Below are positions 13,761 to 38,665 of a DNA stretch of 38,665 bases, in pieces; the first letter of the stretch is position 1, and each line of letters starts with the position of its first letter. The DNA comes from a virus. The position numbers and the translations under genes were made by a program. The notes beneath the pieces were generated by a model. The model saw only the letters and a program-made list of their open reading frames with translations. It searched no databases and was not told where the DNA came from. The stretch spans positions 1 to 38,665 of the IMG/VR virus record IMGVR_UViG_3300045135_000358, one strand, 5' to 3'.

Positions 13761-13936
13761 ACGACAAAGATCACAGTGTATCATACACATCTATAGACTA
13801 TCACACTATGTGTCAGCGATCTAAAGATCAAATAAAGAAGTTGCAATCTCAAGGAATACCTACGTCCCATGACCCGAAAGACAAGCCAGAGGACGTAGGC
13901 AAACGTGAAGGTTACTCTATTATCTTCATGTCATAG
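13757..13936 (+). CDS. Small hypothetical protein ending the late arm
   Basis: A 59-codon frame starts at an ATG that overlaps the stop of the 1366-residue gene (ATGA) and ends with TAG at 13934-13936. The product is hydrophilic (MNDKDHSVSYTSIDYHTMCQ at the start) with no motif. Its stop overlaps the stop of nrdJ on the opposite strand by six bases (13931-13936), so the two arms meet with no intergenic space and no visible terminator. Translational coupling and the full use of space support a real gene. The function is unknown. Confidence 0.55.
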   Translation: MNDKDHSVSYTSIDYHTMCQRSKDQIKKLQSQGIPTSHDPKDKPEDVGKREGYSIIFMS

Positions 13937-15802
13937 CTCACAGTTGTTACCTGTACAGGCTAACTGCTGACTACCTTCAGTCATATCAGACTCCTCACTG
14001 ATGTCCCAGTTGATCTCAGTAGGGAAGTCTTTCTTTAACTGGTTGTATGTTTTCTTATCAACAGGTTCGTATGGTGCTTGTTGATACGTGTGGTCTGAGT
14101 AAGGCAAGAAGCTGATACCAGATACCTTATCGAACTTGTTATACAACCACTGTCCCACCTCCAAGAACTCATCGTCACGATAGTAACAAGTCATTGATGG
14201 TTTGTGTTCACACCATTCGTCCTGATATATCTCCCACAGTTCTAGCTGCTCCATAGCGCCCATCTCAGCGGCTGTCACAGCGCCATCAGGAGACGCGATA
14301 GGGAAGCTGAATACCCTAGTACTGGGTGACATCACATCGTCCTCTACAGGGACACCAGCGGCCTCTAAGACGGTGCAAAGCGGGTCACGAGCATCTGCAC
14401 GTACACGTCGAATGTATTGATCAGAATAACGAGGATGGATACCGCTAGCAGAATCGACCAACTGACTAACAGTGCCTGAAGGCTTAACCGCAGTGATAGC
14501 GGTAGATATATTGATACCCAATCTGCCAGCCCATTCCTTGTTCGTTTTGATTGCTTCTTGTCGCATGGCTCTGAGCCACTTCTTGAGTTCACCTTTATCT
14601 CCTCGTCCTGATAACAACGGATGATCCATGATACCAGTAAGACTAACACCCAACAGTGCTTCGTCTTCTGTGTTTACTCGCCAGATGTTTCGTAGGTATC
14701 TGAAGTCAGTGAGGGTAGCCTGTAGAGTTCCAAGGATAGTCGCAATGCGTACTTTTCGTTTGAGACTAGCGAGCGTATCGGTTGACCGGACAACAACTTC
14801 CGATAGGTTGCAGAACTGGTAGGGTCTGAGGATGATTTCACTACATGGATTAGTTCCAAAATCATAGGTAGCATCTCGTCGCTCGTTCTTTGCAGCTTGC
14901 TTTTGACTTGCCACTCGACTAAAGACACCTCGTTCACCAGATCGTGATTCATACAAACTTGTCCATTCGTTTAAGAAAGCCTCAAAGTCTGGCTTCTCTG
15001 TGTAACAGGCTGAGTTGTTAGCTAGCCCACGTTGAGGATTATCTACCCACCACTGCCCATGTTTACAACGGCGCAGTCGGTCGTCTGTGAGGTTACTGAG
15101 ACTGATGAGTGCTGACCTTCGGACTCCTCCGACGACGACGATTTGAGCAATCTTGCAGCAAAGATCGTGGCATTCAACGGAGCTAAGTCTTCGGCCAGCC
15201 GCAGCTTGAAAGAGGTCAACTGTGAATCGGAACAGTTCGAGCAAAGGCTCTGGACCCGATGCTCTACCGCCAAAAACTCTGAGCGGGGAACCTGAAGGTC
15301 TAACTCTGCTTGTATCCCATTGGGGAATCTGACCTGAATACAGCAGTGATACCAACTCCCTAAACGATTTCGCCCATCCGATCTTCGAATCTGCCACATT
15401 AATAACTGTGTCGGTTGCATGGAATGTCTCCGCTACTTCTGGTAGTTTCTGTACGTACTGTCGTTCAACACTAAACCCTACACCTGTGCCACACATGAGG
15501 ACGTACATCATCTCATCGAATGCTTTGGGGTGGTCAATAGGTAGGTAGCTACAGTTAAACCCAGCTACGTTGTCACGATCCAGTGCCTCGCCAGCAGTCA
15601 TCAACGCTCGCATAGACGGCATGACATCTAGATCATTGACAGCTTTGAATATCTCTGACACCTCAAAGTCATTGAGGTTAGCACGATCTACCCAGTAGTT
15701 GACGTAGCGATTGACTGTTTCTTCCCACGTTTCCCTACGCTTTTCTTCTGGTAGGTATCGTGCGTATCGGCTCTTGTGTATGTATTGTTGATATGCGTCC
15801 AA
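13931..15802 (-). CDS. nrdJ: Adenosylcobalamin-dependent (class II) ribonucleoside-triphosphate reductase
   Basis: This 623-residue monomeric class II reductase makes deoxynucleotides using a B12-derived thiyl radical. Landmarks match the Lactobacillus leichmannii enzyme: redox Cys84 ('GFNCSYL'), radical-site 'NPCSEI' with Asn318, Cys320 and Glu322, and second redox Cys331 ('FCNLSEV'). The C-terminal shuttle pair is Cys616/Cys621 ('ACTGNNCEL'). The Cys320-Cys331 and Cys616-Cys621 spacings equal those of C408/C419 and C731/C736. The start is TTG at 15802, preceded by AAAGGAG at an 8-base gap. It overlaps the DUF1289 gene by 68 bases. No thioredoxin is encoded in the window, so a host reductant is implied. 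The host must import or make cobalamin. Confidence 0.93.
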   Translation of the reverse strand: MDAYQQYIHKSRYARYLPEEKRRETWEETVNRYVNYWVDRANLNDFEVSEIFKAVNDLDVMPSMRALMTAGEALDRDNVAGFNCSYLPIDHPKAFDEMMYVLMCGTGVGFSVERQYVQKLPEVAETFHATDTVINVADSKIGWAKSFRELVSLLYSGQIPQWDTSRVRPSGSPLRVFGGRASGPEPLLELFRFTVDLFQAAAGRRLSSVECHDLCCKIAQIVVVGGVRRSALISLSNLTDDRLRRCKHGQWWVDNPQRGLANNSACYTEKPDFEAFLNEWTSLYESRSGERGVFSRVASQKQAAKNERRDATYDFGTNPCSEIILRPYQFCNLSEVVVRSTDTLASLKRKVRIATILGTLQATLTDFRYLRNIWRVNTEDEALLGVSLTGIMDHPLLSGRGDKGELKKWLRAMRQEAIKTNKEWAGRLGINISTAITAVKPSGTVSQLVDSASGIHPRYSDQYIRRVRADARDPLCTVLEAAGVPVEDDVMSPSTRVFSFPIASPDGAVTAAEMGAMEQLELWEIYQDEWCEHKPSMTCYYRDDEFLEVGQWLYNKFDKVSGISFLPYSDHTYQQAPYEPVDKKTYNQLKKDFPTEINWDISEESDMTEGSQQLACTGNNCEL

Positions 15803-18901: not shown

Positions 18902-18930
18902 ATTATACCACATAAAATAGAATTGCGCTA
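18902..18930 (-). promoter_or_regulatory. Leftward extended -10 promoter before the SSB gene
   Basis: On the minus strand ATGTGGTATAAT places a perfect -10 (18907-18902) with the extended TGn. The -35 position, 17 bases further up (about TAGCGC), is poor. The same ATGTGGTATAAT string occurs in the late promoter at 26811-26822 and a one-base variant at 32173-32183. Predicted start of RNA is near 18895, about 28 bases before the SSB ATG. Confidence 0.65.
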
Positions 18931-20619
18931 GTGTGTATCGCACCAACTAGTACCAACTCTATACTCTCCGTCCAACGGACAGTTCAGTTGCAGGACTTCG
19001 CCTGCGAATACCATTGCGTTAACACAAGACTTACCAATGAAGTCTGCGTCTTCTGGTTTGCATTCTATCTGCCACTCGTCGTGTACCTGTGCAACCAGCT
19101 TGAAGTCAACACGCTCCAGCAGGTCATACAGAATGACGATGGCTTGCTTCATCACCACAGCGCCAGCGCCCTGTAGCAGTGTATTCAGTGCGGCATGAGC
19201 AGATCGTACACGTATGCGTCTACCATCAAGACCACTGAGGAATCCTGTCTCTGCATCTGCCATAGTCTCAGCACGTAAGTCAGCCAGTGCTGGTGTGTTC
19301 TCAAGGAACGATGCCTTCAGTCTCTTACCATGAGCAGCAGTGCCACCCACGATGCTACCTATCTTGGCGTCACCTGCACCGTACAAGAAAGCATAGATAA
19401 ATGTCTTGGCATCATCCCTGTTGTCTAATCCTGCGGCCTTCTGGTTGGCTGTGTGTATATCACCAGTGAGTATCTCCTTGGTGTAGTTCTCATCGTCCAT
19501 GTAGTGAGCCAGCATACGTAGCTCAAGACCACTAGCATCAGCACCAACAAGAACATGACCATCAGGAACAGTGAACAACTCACGACACTGCTTACCATAC
19601 TCAGCCCTTACAGCAGGAACTTGAGCCATGTTAGGTTGTGAGTGTGCCATTCTTCCGGTAACCGCTCCAATGTGACGTACTCTCCCATGTATTCTGCTAC
19701 CTTCTCCAACTGCTTGAATCCACGAATCAACTTGTGACGCTCGCTTTTGACAAAGAAGATAACGAAGGATAATCTTTGCCTCGGGAATGTCATTCTGCTT
19801 TTTAAGCGTAGCCTCATCGACCTTCGGTTTTCCTGACGGAGTGAGTTCCTTCCACACTGCACCTTTGCTCGTAAGACGATCTGCGATTTGTTGTCTACTA
19901 CCGACATTGAACGTCGTAACTTTGTCCTTGAGTCTCTTCCCCGTCTTGTCACTGTACCTTTCCTCCACTATGGGTGGGAACACACGTTGTAGATCACTCT
20001 CAATCCTATGCATACGGGTAGTCAATTCTTCATACAGATCAATAGCTTTCTGTTTGTTGAACTCAAAGCCGTTGTCTTCCTGATCCTTGCATATGAACGC
20101 AACGCTATGCTCAAGATCAACACAGTGCTGGGTGAATCCAAACAACCTCATCTGTTGGATAAGAGAATCATGTAGTCTTTCAGTGACATCCACATCTCTC
20201 TTGCAATACTCCAACATCTCCTCAGAATACTCTGACCAATCCGAATGATCTCCTTTAGGAAAGCCGAGCCTAGTTCCCCAAGCAGCCAAGCTGTGACCAC
20301 CATCCAGATCGGGATGAAATAAACGAGAAAGTACAAGTGTGTCCACAACTCTGTGTTGAGGAACGTGTATACCCCATAGCCTGTGCAACACAGGAAGATC
20401 GTACCCGATAACGTTATGGCCGCATACCTGTCCACCTTTTGCCAGTTCATCCATCAAACTCCTTCTAGATAAGTGGGTCAAGTGAGCTTCGTTCGATCTC
20501 TTGGTAACCACGCAGTGTACTTTCGTAGGGTTCAGGCCGTCTGCCTCTATGTCTATAAACACAGTATTCGTAGTAGGCGAGATCAAGCTTCTGTCTTTCT
20601 GATAGTTCGCTACCACCAT
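18928..20619 (-). CDS. polA: Family A DNA polymerase (T7-like) with 3'-5' exonuclease
   Basis: 563 residues. The N-terminal proofreading domain has 'FIDIEADGL' (Asp23, Glu25), 'GHNVIGYDLP' (Asp74) and 'YCKRDVDVT' (Asp142). The polymerase domain has motif A 'GADASGLELRMLAH' (Asp361), motif B 'RDDAKTFIYAFLYGAG' (Arg401, Lys405, Tyr409) and motif C 'QVHDEW' (Asp514). Tyr409 is the position equivalent to E. coli Phe762, and Tyr there is shared with T7. No 5' nuclease domain is fused; that activity is encoded separately downstream. It is shorter than T7 gp5 (704), partly from a compact exonuclease region. The ATG overlaps the previous gene by 10 bases. Processivity may rely on host thioredoxin, but I cannot identify a binding loop. 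Confidence 0.93.
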   Translation of the reverse strand: MVVANYQKDRSLISPTTNTVFIDIEADGLNPTKVHCVVTKRSNEAHLTHLSRRSLMDELAKGGQVCGHNVIGYDLPVLHRLWGIHVPQHRVVDTLVLSRLFHPDLDGGHSLAAWGTRLGFPKGDHSDWSEYSEEMLEYCKRDVDVTERLHDSLIQQMRLFGFTQHCVDLEHSVAFICKDQEDNGFEFNKQKAIDLYEELTTRMHRIESDLQRVFPPIVEERYSDKTGKRLKDKVTTFNVGSRQQIADRLTSKGAVWKELTPSGKPKVDEATLKKQNDIPEAKIILRYLLCQKRASQVDSWIQAVGEGSRIHGRVRHIGAVTGRMAHSQPNMAQVPAVRAEYGKQCRELFTVPDGHVLVGADASGLELRMLAHYMDDENYTKEILTGDIHTANQKAAGLDNRDDAKTFIYAFLYGAGDAKIGSIVGGTAAHGKRLKASFLENTPALADLRAETMADAETGFLSGLDGRRIRVRSAHAALNTLLQGAGAVVMKQAIVILYDLLERVDFKLVAQVHDEWQIECKPEDADFIGKSCVNAMVFAGEVLQLNCPLDGEYRVGTSWCDTH

Positions 20620-33551: not shown

Positions 33552-34544
33552 ATGGCTGGTGAAACCTCTGGTGCATATTTTACAGCTAATGCTGTAGTAG
33601 ACAAAACCGCAGCGGGCACTTTTATCCCCGAAATTTGGTCGGATGAGATTATCGCTGCATATCAAAAGAACCTGAAGATGGCTCCGCTTGTCAAGCGTAT
33701 GTCTATGACAGGCAAGAAGGGCGATGTAATCCACATCCCTAAGCCTACTCGTGGCGCTGCCTCTGCTAAGTCAGAAGCAACTGCGGTAACCATTCAGGCT
33801 AACCTTGAGTCAGAGTTGACTATCACTGTTGATCGTCACTTTGAGTACTCACGTCTGATTGAGGACATCGTAGAAGTACAGGCTCTGTCTTCTCTGCGAC
33901 AGTTCTACACTGAAGACGCTGGTTACCAACTGGCTCTGAAAGTTGACACCGATCTGATTAACGCTGCTACTGGCTTTGGTGATGGTACTCGTACTACCAC
34001 TCCTGCTAACACTGGCGCTAACTGGGTAAACAGCAACAGCTACTACTTCAATGCCACTTCTGGCCTTGCTGCATATGCTGCTGACACTGTTACTACTGGT
34101 GACAACTTTACTGACCTTGGCTTCCGTGAGGCTATCAAGCTGATGGACGATGCTGACGTACCTATGGACGGACGAGTTCTTGTAATTCCTCCGGCTGTTC
34201 GTAAGTCTTTGATGGGCATTGATCGTTACGTGTCTTCTGACTTTGTTGGTGGCCGTGGCGTTGAGTCTGGTTTGATTGGTAACCTGTACGGTGTAGACAT
34301 CTACGTTTCTAGCAACGCTCCGGTTATCGAAGCTTCTGCTCAGAACTCTGCGTCTACTGCTGATACTCGTGGTTGCTTGTTCTTCCACCAAGACGCTCTG
34401 GTTATGGCCGAGCAACTCGCTGTACGTTCTCAGACACAGTACAAGCAGGAATACCTGTCTACGCTGTTTACGTCTGACACGCTGTACGGTGTTGAGACTT
34501 ACCGTCCTGAAGCAGGATTCATCCTGTCTGTTTGCGACGAGTAA
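33552..34544 (+). CDS. Major capsid protein
   Basis: 330 residues, HK97-type by pattern. The N-terminal arm is 'ETSGAYFTANAVVDKTAAG'. It is followed by 'FIPEIWSDEIIAAYQKNL' (spine helix), 'VTIQANLESELTITVDRHFE' (P-domain beta), 'VLVIPPAVRKSLMGIDRY' (A-domain) and the C-terminal 'TLYGVETYRPEAGFILSV'. It follows the scaffold with strong AAGGAG before the ATG and precedes a terminator. Its codons look richer in GC and more uniform than nearby genes, as expected for a highly expressed protein. The family is clear. Confidence 0.88.
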   Translation: MAGETSGAYFTANAVVDKTAAGTFIPEIWSDEIIAAYQKNLKMAPLVKRMSMTGKKGDVIHIPKPTRGAASAKSEATAVTIQANLESELTITVDRHFEYSRLIEDIVEVQALSSLRQFYTEDAGYQLALKVDTDLINAATGFGDGTRTTTPANTGANWVNSNSYYFNATSGLAAYAADTVTTGDNFTDLGFREAIKLMDDADVPMDGRVLVIPPAVRKSLMGIDRYVSSDFVGGRGVESGLIGNLYGVDIYVSSNAPVIEASAQNSASTADTRGCLFFHQDALVMAEQLAVRSQTQYKQEYLSTLFTSDTLYGVETYRPEAGFILSVCDE

Positions 34545-34629: not shown

Positions 34630-37395
34630 ATGACTAATTACGTAAAGTTTACTAATTTTACTGTTAAAGATTCTCTGCCTACGGGTGACACTAATAAGGT
34701 TATCCGTGGCTCAGAGTTTGATACAGAATTTGATGCTATTGCTACGGCAGTATCCACTAAATCTAATATTGCTAGTCCTACGTTTACGGGTACTGCTACG
34801 TTTGATGGCCTTACTGCTACAGGTACAGTTGACTTTTCAGGTGGTAACGTAACGACTAACATTGACGGTGGTACTATCGACGGTGTAATTATTGGTGGTT
34901 CTACTCCTGCCGCTATTTCAGGCACTACAGGTACATTCTCAGGTGTTGTCACAGGCTCTAACCTCAACGTATCTAATTGGGACACAGCGTTTGGTTGGGG
35001 CGACCACAGCACAGAAGGTTACCTGACTAGCGTTACGCTCTCTGATATAGACGCTGGAGCTATTACAACTTCTAGTGAAACCTTTGCAGATAGCGATACT
35101 CAGATTCCTACTAACGCCGCTGTGCGTAACTGGGTGTTGACTACGTACCCTACTATTGTAGAGCTTAACGATCTTACTGCTAACGTAACGTGGGCTAACG
35201 TACCTGACGCAAACATTACTGAGTCTTCTGTTACACAACACGAAGCTGCCCTGTCTATTAACACTAGCCAAATCAGTGGTGGTCTGTCGTTGTCTGACAT
35301 CACAGACGTTACTGCTACGGCTACTGAAGTTAACTACACAGACGGCGTTACGTCAAACATCCAGACACAGTTGGATTCCAAGGTAGGCGCTACTCACACA
35401 GGTGACGTAGACATCACAGGCGAATTGCTGGTTGATAGTTACAATGAAACTTTTAAAGCGCCTTCACCGTCAGCTACTACAAATCCGTTTGATTTTGATG
35501 CTATTACTGCGACAGGAAATACAGTCAATGTGCAAACCAATGGCGCTGGCGATCAACCTGTTGGCAACGTGTATTGGAAGCCTGACGGAACGGTATTTTG
35601 GGTACATGACCATGATAATACTCCCGGCGACAGGATTTATCAGTACACCCTTAGCACAGCTTGGGATTTAAGTACAGCTTCTTATGATACGTATTTAAGC
35701 TCAACGACAGCATTTGGAGTACAGAATGTTACTTTTGGCGTTACTAATGACGGAACAGTTCTAATAGGAACACCAAGAGGTTCTGGAACATCCGTAAGTC
35801 GGAAGATTACTCTTACTACTGCTTGGGATATTGGCGGCGGCTACACAAATAATGGAACAGGTGATGCCATTACTAACTTTGATTACGGATATTCATTACA
35901 GATAAAAAATGATGGTACAAAACTGTGGGCCTTAAACGATGGTGGTGAAATACACCAGTGGTCTTTTGGTACAGCGTTTGACCATACTACTCTTTCTTAT
36001 GATTCTAAGTCTTTTACTCCGGGTGGTACGCAAGACAGATCGTTTGAATTTAACAGCGACGGAACAAAAATATACGTTTCTAGCTCAAACGGACAAGCAG
36101 TAAATGAATACACCCTTTCTACGGCTTACGACATCAGCACCGCTAACTCTACGGCTACCAATACTTACGCTGTTGGTTTTAACGTAGCACTGATTGGCAT
36201 AGATCCTGACGGCTCTAAATTATATTTGGTTAGAGATGCGTTAGGTTTTACTGTTACAGAATATGACTTTGATTCTGCGGCTAACGGCTTAACTATTGAT
36301 TGCGAATCAGGAAATGTGTTTAGCCATACGCTTTCTGCTAACACCATTTTTACCTTTAGCAACCCGCCAGCTAGTGGGACGCCTGTTGTTAGTGGTTATC
36401 AACTGTCATCAGCGGCTTACGCATCTAAAAGTTTTAGCGTTGCTTCACAGGAAACTGCGCCAAGAGCCGTTGAGTTCAAATCGGACGGTACAAAAATGTA
36501 CGTTCTAGGAAGCATTAGCGATACGGTTTTCCAGTACGCTCTTTCTACTGCTTGGGACGTTAGCACAGCAAGTTACGAATCCAAAAGTTTTAGCGTAGCT
36601 AGTGAGCAAACTGTTCCAGACGGAATACGATTTAAACCTGACGGTACTAAGTTTTACATTATTGGTGATACTCCTGACAGCGTACATCAGTACTCTATGT
36701 CTACCGCTTGGGATATATCTACAGCTTCTTACGACTCTGTAACCTTTAGCGTTAGCTCGCAATTAAGCCAAGCAACAGGTTTATTCTTTAAGTCAGACGG
36801 TCTTTCCCTTTATGCGGTTGGTGCTGTTAATGATACTGTCTATCAATATACATTAAGCACTGCATGGGATTTAAGTACAGCTTCTTATGCATCTAAGAGT
36901 TTTAGTGTTGCGTCACAAGCAACTTTTCCTACTGACGTTAATTTTAATAATGATGGAACAAAAATGTTTGTGCAGTGCCTAAATACAGATTTTGTTTATC
37001 AATATTCATTAAGCACTGCTTGGGATGTTTCAACTGCTTCATATGACTCTGTAAGTTTTAGCACAGGAAGTCAAGAAGTAAATCCTTACGCTTGTACTTT
37101 TGGAGACAGCGGAACAAAAATGTATGTGGTTGGAAACTCAGGGGACACCGTTTATCAATACTCTACAAGCACATCATCCCTCAACGACAGCACAGCCTAC
37201 GCAATGTCACTCAAGGTTGTCCAAGATGCTGATGCCTCCGGGTACACTGTAACGTGGCCTACGTCTGTTGATTGGCCTAGTGCTACAGCGCCTACCCTGA
37301 CAGCTACAGCGTCTGCTGTGGATCAGTTTGTGTTTTACACATATGACGGTGGAACAACTTGGTACGGGTTTACAGCGGGGCAAGCACTAGGATGA
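34630..37395 (+). CDS. Tail fibre with nested beta-propeller-like repeats
   Basis: 921 residues. The N-terminal part is a short-repeat fibre shaft ('SPTFTGTATFDGLTATGTVD', 'SLSDITDVTATATEVNYTDG'). Repeats with Y-x-L-S-T-A-W-D-(L/V/I)-S-T-A-S-Y recur eight times (about residues 335-830) with a pitch near 50. Each is preceded by '(K/N)SDGTKMYV'-like strands, as in beta-propellers. Segments of a known fibre tip are split around them: 'GLTIDCESGNVFSHTLSANT' followed by 'FTFSNPPASGT', and the end 'AYAMSLKVVQDADASGYTV' to 'WYGFTAGQALG'. It likely binds the host receptor. AGGAT precedes the ATG; the stop overlaps the next gene (ATGA). Confidence 0.75.
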   Translation: MTNYVKFTNFTVKDSLPTGDTNKVIRGSEFDTEFDAIATAVSTKSNIASPTFTGTATFDGLTATGTVDFSGGNVTTNIDGGTIDGVIIGGSTPAAISGTTGTFSGVVTGSNLNVSNWDTAFGWGDHSTEGYLTSVTLSDIDAGAITTSSETFADSDTQIPTNAAVRNWVLTTYPTIVELNDLTANVTWANVPDANITESSVTQHEAALSINTSQISGGLSLSDITDVTATATEVNYTDGVTSNIQTQLDSKVGATHTGDVDITGELLVDSYNETFKAPSPSATTNPFDFDAITATGNTVNVQTNGAGDQPVGNVYWKPDGTVFWVHDHDNTPGDRIYQYTLSTAWDLSTASYDTYLSSTTAFGVQNVTFGVTNDGTVLIGTPRGSGTSVSRKITLTTAWDIGGGYTNNGTGDAITNFDYGYSLQIKNDGTKLWALNDGGEIHQWSFGTAFDHTTLSYDSKSFTPGGTQDRSFEFNSDGTKIYVSSSNGQAVNEYTLSTAYDISTANSTATNTYAVGFNVALIGIDPDGSKLYLVRDALGFTVTEYDFDSAANGLTIDCESGNVFSHTLSANTIFTFSNPPASGTPVVSGYQLSSAAYASKSFSVASQETAPRAVEFKSDGTKMYVLGSISDTVFQYALSTAWDVSTASYESKSFSVASEQTVPDGIRFKPDGTKFYIIGDTPDSVHQYSMSTAWDISTASYDSVTFSVSSQLSQATGLFFKSDGLSLYAVGAVNDTVYQYTLSTAWDLSTASYASKSFSVASQATFPTDVNFNNDGTKMFVQCLNTDFVYQYSLSTAWDVSTASYDSVSFSTGSQEVNPYACTFGDSGTKMYVVGNSGDTVYQYSTSTSSLNDSTAYAMSLKVVQDADASGYTVTWPTSVDWPSATAPTLTATASAVDQFVFYTYDGGTTWYGFTAGQALG

Positions 37396-38665
37396 GTGTA
37401 GGTAGGTTTTTACAACAGGCTGCGGCTGGGGCTGGAGGTTCAGCACCGATTGCTCAGTTTTACGATGTTGTTAGCGGCGGCGATATTACAGAAATAATAG
37501 GAACAGCTACTTCGTCTGACGGAAATGTGGCTTTTTGTGGTCATTCTGGCGGCTACAATGGAATTGTTGTATTAATTGACGCAGACGGTGCAAAAGTTTG
37601 GGAAGTTAAACTAGCTGCTCAAGTTTGTTATTTGTACGCCGTTACGTTTACCGCAGACGGAAATGTTGTAGCTGTAGGAACCTTGCAAGCTAGTTCTGCT
37701 GGAATAAGTCCCAGTCAAATGTTTGTTACTTGTCACGACTCTTCTGATGGAAGTGTTTTGTGGCAAAACGCCTACTATAACAATACATCTTATGCTTCTT
37801 ATGCTCGTGATGTTATTTTAGATGATAATGATAATCTTCTTGTTCCTTGCGGTTATGGTTGGGCTAGCTCAGATAGACGTAGGGCAGTGTTACTCTCTAT
37901 AGATCCATCAAACGGTTCTTTAATAGGATCAGAACAAAGAGGTTTAAGAATATCTACGAAGTCAATGGAGTTTACAGGAATTTGGAAAAACGACGACGGT
38001 AGTTATTATTTAAGTGGTGTTGGTCAAATTGTTAACACTAGTAATTACGCTTTTAGGGCTGAGTTATCATCTTTATCTGCTTCAGAAATTGATACAACAA
38101 CTTATTATATACAAGAAACAAGTGCTTCTTTTTATAACGACACGCCGCCTAAAATTGTAAGAACATCTGACGGTACTAATTTTTTAACGTATTCTTCTGG
38201 TAGGATAGCCAGCATAACCGATGATTGGTCTACCTTAAACGCAGCAAAAGACCTTAGGTATAGTTCTGCAACAGCTTTTATTCCTAATATGAAAATAACA
38301 TCTGACGATAAAATTTTACTTTCTCACAGAGTTGTTGGTAAATCTCCAGATTGGGCAGGACTTACTTTAATAGATCAAAGCACTAACAAGACACTTCTCG
38401 GTACTGACATTACTTGGAATGGACATATACAACACAATAGTTCTTCAAATGCAGATTTTTACGGCGTTGCTATAGATTCAGTATCAGAAAATTTTGTTGT
38501 TGTTGGTACATTAGATAATACTGGTGCTTCGGGCGGTCCTTTGGGTTTGGTCTTAACTCAAAGTTTAGAAAACGGTGGTGGATATACCAGCGGAAAATCT
38601 TTAAACAACGCTACTGGTTTTACTTACTATAATGATACGCAAACTACAACAATGAACAATGCTGC
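37392..38665 (+). CDS. Fibre-like tail protein, 5' part (continues at position 1, ends at 245)
   Basis: Starts with an ATG overlapping the fibre stop (ATGA) and stays open to the window end. On the circle it ends at 245, for 463 residues. The N-terminus 'MSVGRFLQQAAAGAGGSAPI' is an opening common in marine phage tail proteins. The body has repeated strand pairs with short turns ('SSDGNVAFCGHSGGYNG', 'TADGNVVAVGT', 'DDNDNLLVPCG'), a propeller-like pattern different from the preceding fibre. Together with that fibre it probably forms the receptor-binding tip. It was split by the linear representation, so it is easily missed. Confidence 0.75.
   Translation, partial: MSVGRFLQQAAAGAGGSAPIAQFYDVVSGGDITEIIGTATSSDGNVAFCGHSGGYNGIVVLIDADGAKVWEVKLAAQVCYLYAVTFTADGNVVAVGTLQASSAGISPSQMFVTCHDSSDGSVLWQNAYYNNTSYASYARDVILDDNDNLLVPCGYGWASSDRRRAVLLSIDPSNGSLIGSEQRGLRISTKSMEFTGIWKNDDGSYYLSGVGQIVNTSNYAFRAELSSLSASEIDTTTYYIQETSASFYNDTPPKIVRTSDGTNFLTYSSGRIASITDDWSTLNAAKDLRYSSATAFIPNMKITSDDKILLSHRVVGKSPDWAGLTLIDQSTNKTLLGTDITWNGHIQHNSSSNADFYGVAIDSVSENFVVVGTLDNTGASGGPLGLVLTQSLENGGGYTSGKSLNNATGFTYYNDTQTTTMNNA
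38539..38665. repeat. Terminal direct repeat, right copy
   Basis: The last 127 bases are identical to positions 1-127. Removing one copy gives the 38,538-bp circle and restores the 37392-to-245 reading frame. Confidence 0.95.

Follow-up and report, generated by a model that had tools for sequence, protein, structure and literature searches.

The conserved C-terminal tip of a tail fibre from an uncultured marine bacterial virus is probably a docking frame, within the loops of which five-bladed propellers, themselves the probable host-recognition surface, are nested and exchanged. The nesting of the propellers in the tip, their occurrence in whole sets of five blades, their presence or absence among relatives, their replacement and the appearance of one propeller at different sites are all observed. 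The DNA in question, referred to here as the window, is the whole 38,665-nucleotide (38.7 kb) record of the virus, with a GC content of 44%. From the order of its open reading frames and their PHROG matches, the fibre gene belongs to the structural or tail module, being the next gene after that of the major capsid protein; scaffold-like and major capsid genes precede it and a probable second fibre gene follows. The features of this region are listed below, where L numbers denote related loci.

33552-34544: major capsid gene, matching phrog_267, directly upstream of the fibre gene
34630..37395, + strand: tail-fibre gene, 921 aa, adjoining the 3' end of the major capsid gene (ORF list, PHROG)
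34630..35433, + strand: fibre stem, aa 1-268, divergent or replaced among relatives that have the tip in common
35434..35460, + strand: tip piece A (SYNETFKA, first strand), aa 269-277, aligning to the uninterrupted tips of CRP-4, CRP-603 and CRP-13
35461..36282, + strand: propeller 1 at site 1, aa 278-551, five blades (AlphaFold2 strands; identity to L015)
36283..36381, + strand: tip piece B (NGLTIDCESG...PPASGT), aa 552-584, at positions 15-50 of the intact-tip HMM
36382..37194, + strand: propeller 2 at site 2 with its linkers, aa 585-855, five 52-aa blades (20 strands, 156-nt period)
36390..37179, + strand: stretch in common with site 1 of L017, 95.9% nt identity over 790 bp
36390..37167, + strand: stretch in common with site 1 of L016, 88.8% nt identity
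37195..37392, + strand: tip piece C (AYAMSLK...WYGFTAGQALG), aa 856-921, at positions 1-66 of the intact-tip HMM, E 5e-37
37359..38663, + strand: next gene, for a probable second fibre protein, its ORF overlapping the end of the fibre gene and leaving the record

The initial annotation had proposed that pieces of a tip which read continuously in other marine phages are here pushed apart by two blocks of repeats of about 50 residues. The pieces are indeed present and in the order proposed, with SYNETFKA at aa 269-277, GLTIDCESG from aa 552, TFSNPPASGT at aa 575-584, AYAMSLK at aa 856-862 and WYGFTAGQALG at aa 911-921. The first block (aa 278-551) precedes GLTIDCESG, and the second begins at aa 585, immediately after PPASGT, its last blade ending near aa 848 and being followed by a short linker, ending NDST, that leads into AYAMSLK. 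The repeats themselves are real, the best 50-residue self-alignments scoring 180, 178, 164 and 133 against some 27-40 for unrelated parts of the fibre, but the exact unit is 52 aa, visible in the DNA of block 2 as a period of 156 nt. The motif Y-x-L-S-T-A-W-D-x-S-T-A-S-Y, said to be common to both blocks, recurs in block 2 and is complete just once in block 1, which is much the more divergent of the two and about 35% identical to propellers of the block 2 type. The PHROG 7760 and 9017 ‘tail fiber protein’ families match aa 843-917 of the fibre (aa 843-914 and 853-917, E 5e-11); this alignment covers just the region at and after the end of site 2, as would be expected if the domain is interrupted. 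The fibre carries no accepted Pfam domain, a match to CsgF falling under its cut-off.

Nesting is supported in that the same tip occurs uninterrupted in many relatives, while others are filled at site 1 alone or at site 2 alone. Among named phages searched with tblastn, the tip pieces are contiguous in CRP-4 gp53 (205 aa) and CRP-603 gp53 (471 aa), where the matched pieces are 78% and 60% identical, respectively, to those of the window; CRP-13 gp46 (274 aa), which came alongside a neighbouring match, also has an uninterrupted tip. These three roseophage fibres thus possess the tip domain of the window with every site free of propellers. More than 300 loci from IMG/VR and named phages, in a sample whose composition depends on the queries chosen, were then classified with HMMs for both halves of the tip, giving 307 distinct tips. 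The uninterrupted relatives that the initial annotation had suggested seeking by alignment turn out to be the commonest form, 227 of the 307 tips being scored empty; this count is approximate, the true figure being slightly lower, because the automatic adjacency rule overlooked a small number of site-1 propellers, as in L026 and L085, which are filled on inspection.

In terms of the tip itself, site 1 is the turn between strands 1 and 2, and site 2 the loop between strands 4 and 5, that is, between PPASGT and AYAMSLK. The relatives also reveal a third insertion loop, missed by the initial annotation, which follows strand 5, precedes GYTVTWP and takes propellers. Forms filled at site 1 only, at site 2 only, at both sites 1 and 2, and at site 3 are all observed, and tips that are about 90% identical at their C-terminal end occur empty or with site 1, site 2 or both of these filled. 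Metagenomic contigs are the source of almost every filled form; the example from an isolate is the divergent ICBM2 gp51, filled at site 3. In L047 (1845-3956) and L040 (5911-7197), site 3 holds, instead of a propeller, a domain homologous (38-39% identity) to CRP-4 gp52, the next fibre gene; the loop therefore accepts another fold. At L036, L038, L048 and similar loci, consecutive genes encode the same tip in different states, such that in the runs at L038 and L048 a single phage carries empty, one-propeller and two-propeller tips. Such runs suggest that one genome can supply several alternative fibres. Both sites are also filled in a phage-type fibre (L315:7-3000) on a contig binned as Flavobacteriales (TaraRedSea MAG), which is probably a misplaced phage contig.

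As to the structure, an AlphaFold2 prediction of aa 262-921, made as a monomer, gives two separate propellers, each consisting of five four-stranded blades (20 strands), at a pLDDT of about 90-97 for propeller 2 and mostly 60-88 for propeller 1. The order of the strands (one, then sets, then three) fits a 1+3 closure, in which the N-terminal strand would close the last blade. Such a closure should bring the two ends of a propeller side by side, and with its ends adjacent a propeller could be accommodated in a loop while the frame stays whole. The number of blades rests on strands and repeats, since a structural search with the two-propeller model finds generic propellers (Pizza6 designs at Z 17.4), matches which do not tell blade number. 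The lengths of the inserts are in keeping with whole propellers only: at sites 2 and 3 they measure 250-278 aa in 65 cases (that of propeller 2 in the window is 271 aa) and 517-519 aa in four, with none between, such that all 69 propeller inserts amount to approximately five or ten blades. The ten-blade inserts, of about 518 aa and composed of two five-blade propellers in series, lie at site 3 (L061:19-1938, L065, L066, L073).

The intact tip of one relative, L056, folds alone in its AlphaFold2 model with a core pLDDT of about 77-90; all three points of insertion map to loops of this model, near residues 35-37, 63-70 and 80-87. A structural search with this tip returns weak matches in the uninformative range of the tool, the best at Z 7.0 to the capsid spike of Pa223, with T4 gp9 and CBA120 TSP4 among the others, and for this reason the fold is called here only beta-sandwich-like; nothing useful came from a PDB sequence search with the tip. 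The initial annotation had suggested a structure prediction to look for one or two propellers on an intact tip domain. Two propellers are predicted, but the pieces of the split tip have a pLDDT of <50 in the same model, so the reassembly of pieces A, B and C into one domain is drawn from homology.

Comparison of close relatives shows propeller modules gained, lost and replaced and passing between loops, movement that can be read in the DNA. The clearest case concerns propeller 2 of the window, which lies at site 2 and is 97.7% identical in amino acids (95.9% in nucleotides over 790 bp) to the site-1 propeller of L017, and 92% identical in amino acids to that of L016. The identity of the window and L017 drops to about 40-50% at the ends of the propeller, other aligned regions being 85-92% identical. 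The propellers at site 2 of L042 and site 1 of L041 (93% aa) form a second cross-site case. The proposal of the initial annotation that propellers can be swapped without disturbing the tip is borne out by L015, which keeps propeller 1 of the window at site 1 (95.7% aa) together with a different propeller 2 (55.7%), and by L012 and L013 (99.9% identical to each other), which differ from L027 by one site-2 propeller within DNA that is about 97.6% identical over flanks of 3382 bp to the left of site 2 and 253 bp to its right. The pairs L014/L028 and L009/L023 each have propeller 2 in common, with site 1 filled in one member and empty in the other. The three site labels are strongly mixed when placed on a tree of 117 propellers: they require 36 changes, where the minimum is 2 and the mean for shuffled labels 47.6, and the well-supported branches force at least seven changes for site 1 and at least six for site 2.

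Since IMG/VR contigs supply most of these forms and repeats can mislead assemblers, the filled, empty and cross-site forms might be thought to be chimeras of metagenome assembly. This is very improbable: the site-1 copies of propeller 2 of the window are found in two contigs, the sequences differ close to the junctions, which deprives an assembler of any long exact word by which to bridge them, the filled partner of the near-isogenic pair is present in two assemblies (L012 and L013, at 99.9%), several contigs have the empty junction PPAAGTATDSTAYAM, and among cultured isolates the tip is empty in CRP-4 and filled in ICBM2 gp51. It is scarcely credible that the repeats form one continuous large propeller, or unrelated tandem domains whose flanks resemble other fibres by chance. 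Nothing beyond the raw order of the repeats speaks for such an arrangement, which the intact relatives already contradict; each tip piece matches its own place in one intact domain, and a single long propeller was rejected in view of the two separate five-blade propellers predicted by AlphaFold2, a choice between one and two which the initial annotation had left to structure prediction.

The tip and its inserts also differ in how strongly they are conserved. Across 21 relatives with a tip of the window type, mean identity is 95% for the C piece of the tip, 84% for the middle piece and 53% for the propellers. In a set of 550 distinct blades, the variable positions cluster in the A strand and in two loops, D-to-A and B-to-C, with the A-to-B and C-to-D loops conserved. 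By the layout usual for propellers, the two variable loops share one face, a face which commonly binds ligands. With strands named, and loops hence assigned to faces, by the usual propeller order, loop variability is 1.52 bits higher on one face than on the other, a difference matched in none of 20,000 permutations. Such variation on one face is expected of a binding surface. As regards a diversity-generating retroelement (DGR) as the driver of this diversity, which would call for a reverse transcriptase and a template repeat nearby, no reverse transcriptase was found among the larger window proteins, the set that was scanned.

These patterns bear on two further explanations of the propellers. 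They might serve to make the fibre longer or stiffer, as spacers or stabilisers, and leave receptor binding to the conserved tip; this would agree with a C-terminal tip piece that is 95% conserved and keeps its terminal position whatever the form, and with the many phages that manage without propellers. Neither the concentration of variation on one face nor the exchange of near-identical cassettes across otherwise divergent genomes is expected of spacers, however, and we regard this explanation as unlikely. That the propellers are enzymes, for instance glycan-cleaving ones, rather than pure binding modules is suggested by the propeller enzymes contained in phage tails (endosialidases, cited in PMC4901313) and by weak sequence matches to PDB chains of the 6-phosphogluconolactonase type. 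An enzymatic role is nevertheless distinctly unlikely, given that in the blade profile the five blades share one consensus, with no extra set of conserved residues in one blade, and that no enzyme family attains the Pfam cut-off. The preferred explanation, then, is that of propellers as recognition modules docked in a conserved frame. In this regard, swapping, as proposed by the initial annotation, is supported, and its description of the propellers as receptor-binding can be put as a likelihood: their position, their one hypervariable face and the precedent of phi11 Gp45 lead us to infer that they bind a host receptor.

That precedent is a receptor-binding protein of a Staphylococcus phage which contains a five-bladed propeller and whose receptor is glycosylated teichoic acid (PMC4901313). 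In Gp45 the last blade is closed by the N-terminal strand, an arrangement that the strand order of the window propellers would also fit, but the one propeller of Gp45 stands in line between the stem and a beta ‘tower’ which comes after it, and is not nested in another domain (PMC4901313). The two phages also differ in host and virion type, and no Gp45 chain is among the PDB chains listed at E up to 1 in a profile search, a comparison at the level of sequence and not of fold. A protein of the Gp45 type would also be a homotrimer with a glycan-binding cavity, whereas the window fibre was modelled as a monomer. The evolved Dit proteins of siphophages offer a different parallel: carbohydrate-binding modules (CBMs) are inserted in this conserved tail protein in some relatives, whereas others lack them (PMC8540738 and work cited there). 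Unlike the fibre of the window, Dit is a baseplate hub protein with CBM inserts and not propellers, and the passages of PMC8540738 consulted do not describe one module moving between different loops. The window fibre gene resembles a podovirus-type fibre and not Dit, which would have a belt/galectin core, and no Dit profile is among the Pfam or PHROG matches of the window proteins. Among cultured phages, ICBM2 gp51, annotated as hypothetical and from a Lentibacter phage of the cobavirus group, has a five-bladed propeller of the same family and a divergent form of the same tip, but differs from the window in its stem and in its single propeller at site 3, after strand 5. The cobavirus paper describes the tail-fibre region as variable and does not mention propellers (PMC6775973). 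The literature searched, with subscription papers mostly outside its coverage and hence as weak evidence, describes modular and inserted recognition domains and did not yield the arrangement of the window.

The same blade family is also found outside phages. A scan of bacterial genomes places it in proteins of Pelagibacteraceae (SAR11) that measure about 700-850 aa and almost all contain exactly five blades. Where tested, these proteins carry an autotransporter beta-domain at the C terminus (Pfam Autotransporter, E 1e-31 to 1e-39). Autotransporters with propeller passengers in SAR11 and other alphaproteobacterial genomes, some of which have an Ig-like domain between the two parts, are as follows.

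L335:2848-5022: propeller-passenger autotransporter
L354:2785-5322: propeller-passenger autotransporter
L350:2830-5301: propeller-passenger autotransporter
L328:2971-5148: propeller-passenger autotransporter

The variable positions of the blades in phages and SAR11 correlate at 0.84. Unlike the window fibre, these are bacterial outer-membrane proteins and have no tip domain. With the same blade family and the same variable positions on both sides, phages and bacteria draw on one family of surface propellers, and, on this sequence resemblance, a common pool of propellers between phage fibres and autotransporters is possible.

In the mechanism proposed, the C-terminal tip, a small beta-sandwich-like domain at the end of the fibre, would act as the docking frame and the propellers nested in its loops would present the host-contacting surface, the hypervariable face of which may bind a cell-surface glycan or another receptor. 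The phage would then alter recognition by gaining, losing or exchanging propellers, and it is probably in this way that these viruses vary the host-gripping part of the fibre. Homologous recombination between co-infecting phages would be the simplest means of exchange, for which the tip and the ends of the blades, both conserved, could supply the homology. Extending this beyond the window, we consider it somewhat likely that the tip is a general docking frame in many marine phages, with at least three loops, between which recognition modules, mostly five-bladed propellers and occasionally another fibre domain, move as whole cassettes, and that the propeller pool is common with autotransporters of abundant marine bacteria such as SAR11. 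Modularity itself is already known, as is the exchange of whole receptor-binding domains at the fibre end; what is new is the nested, multi-loop exchange of whole cassettes, the unit here lying inside a conserved domain and the same module being traceable from one loop to another in nature. The natural set of empty, one-propeller, two-propeller and replaced tips allows comparison of how fibre composition sets the host range of ocean phages, and the data on the tip point to loops that tolerate folded inserts. The occurrence of the family on SAR11 surface proteins, for its part, prompts one to ask whether bacteria were the source from which phages took these modules.

With respect to the remainder of the window, the product of the gene at 37359..38663 has a weak Pfam match to the PQQ_2 propeller, and LQQAAAGAGG near its start resembles CRP-4 gp52 by eye. 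The region 3' of the fibre in L017 matches positions 542-1828 of the window at 85%, from which it follows that the record is probably circularly permuted, with the gene after the fibre spanning its ends. A nucleotide-level search of named phages found none closely related to the window. Its DNA polymerase (18928-20619) is closest to those of the Pelagibacter phages HTVC103P/104P (46%), although the GC content of 44% far exceeds the approximately 28-32% of the SAR11 loci in this analysis, and its ribonucleotide reductase (13931-15802) has a weak match to the insertion domain of the B12-dependent (class II) enzymes.
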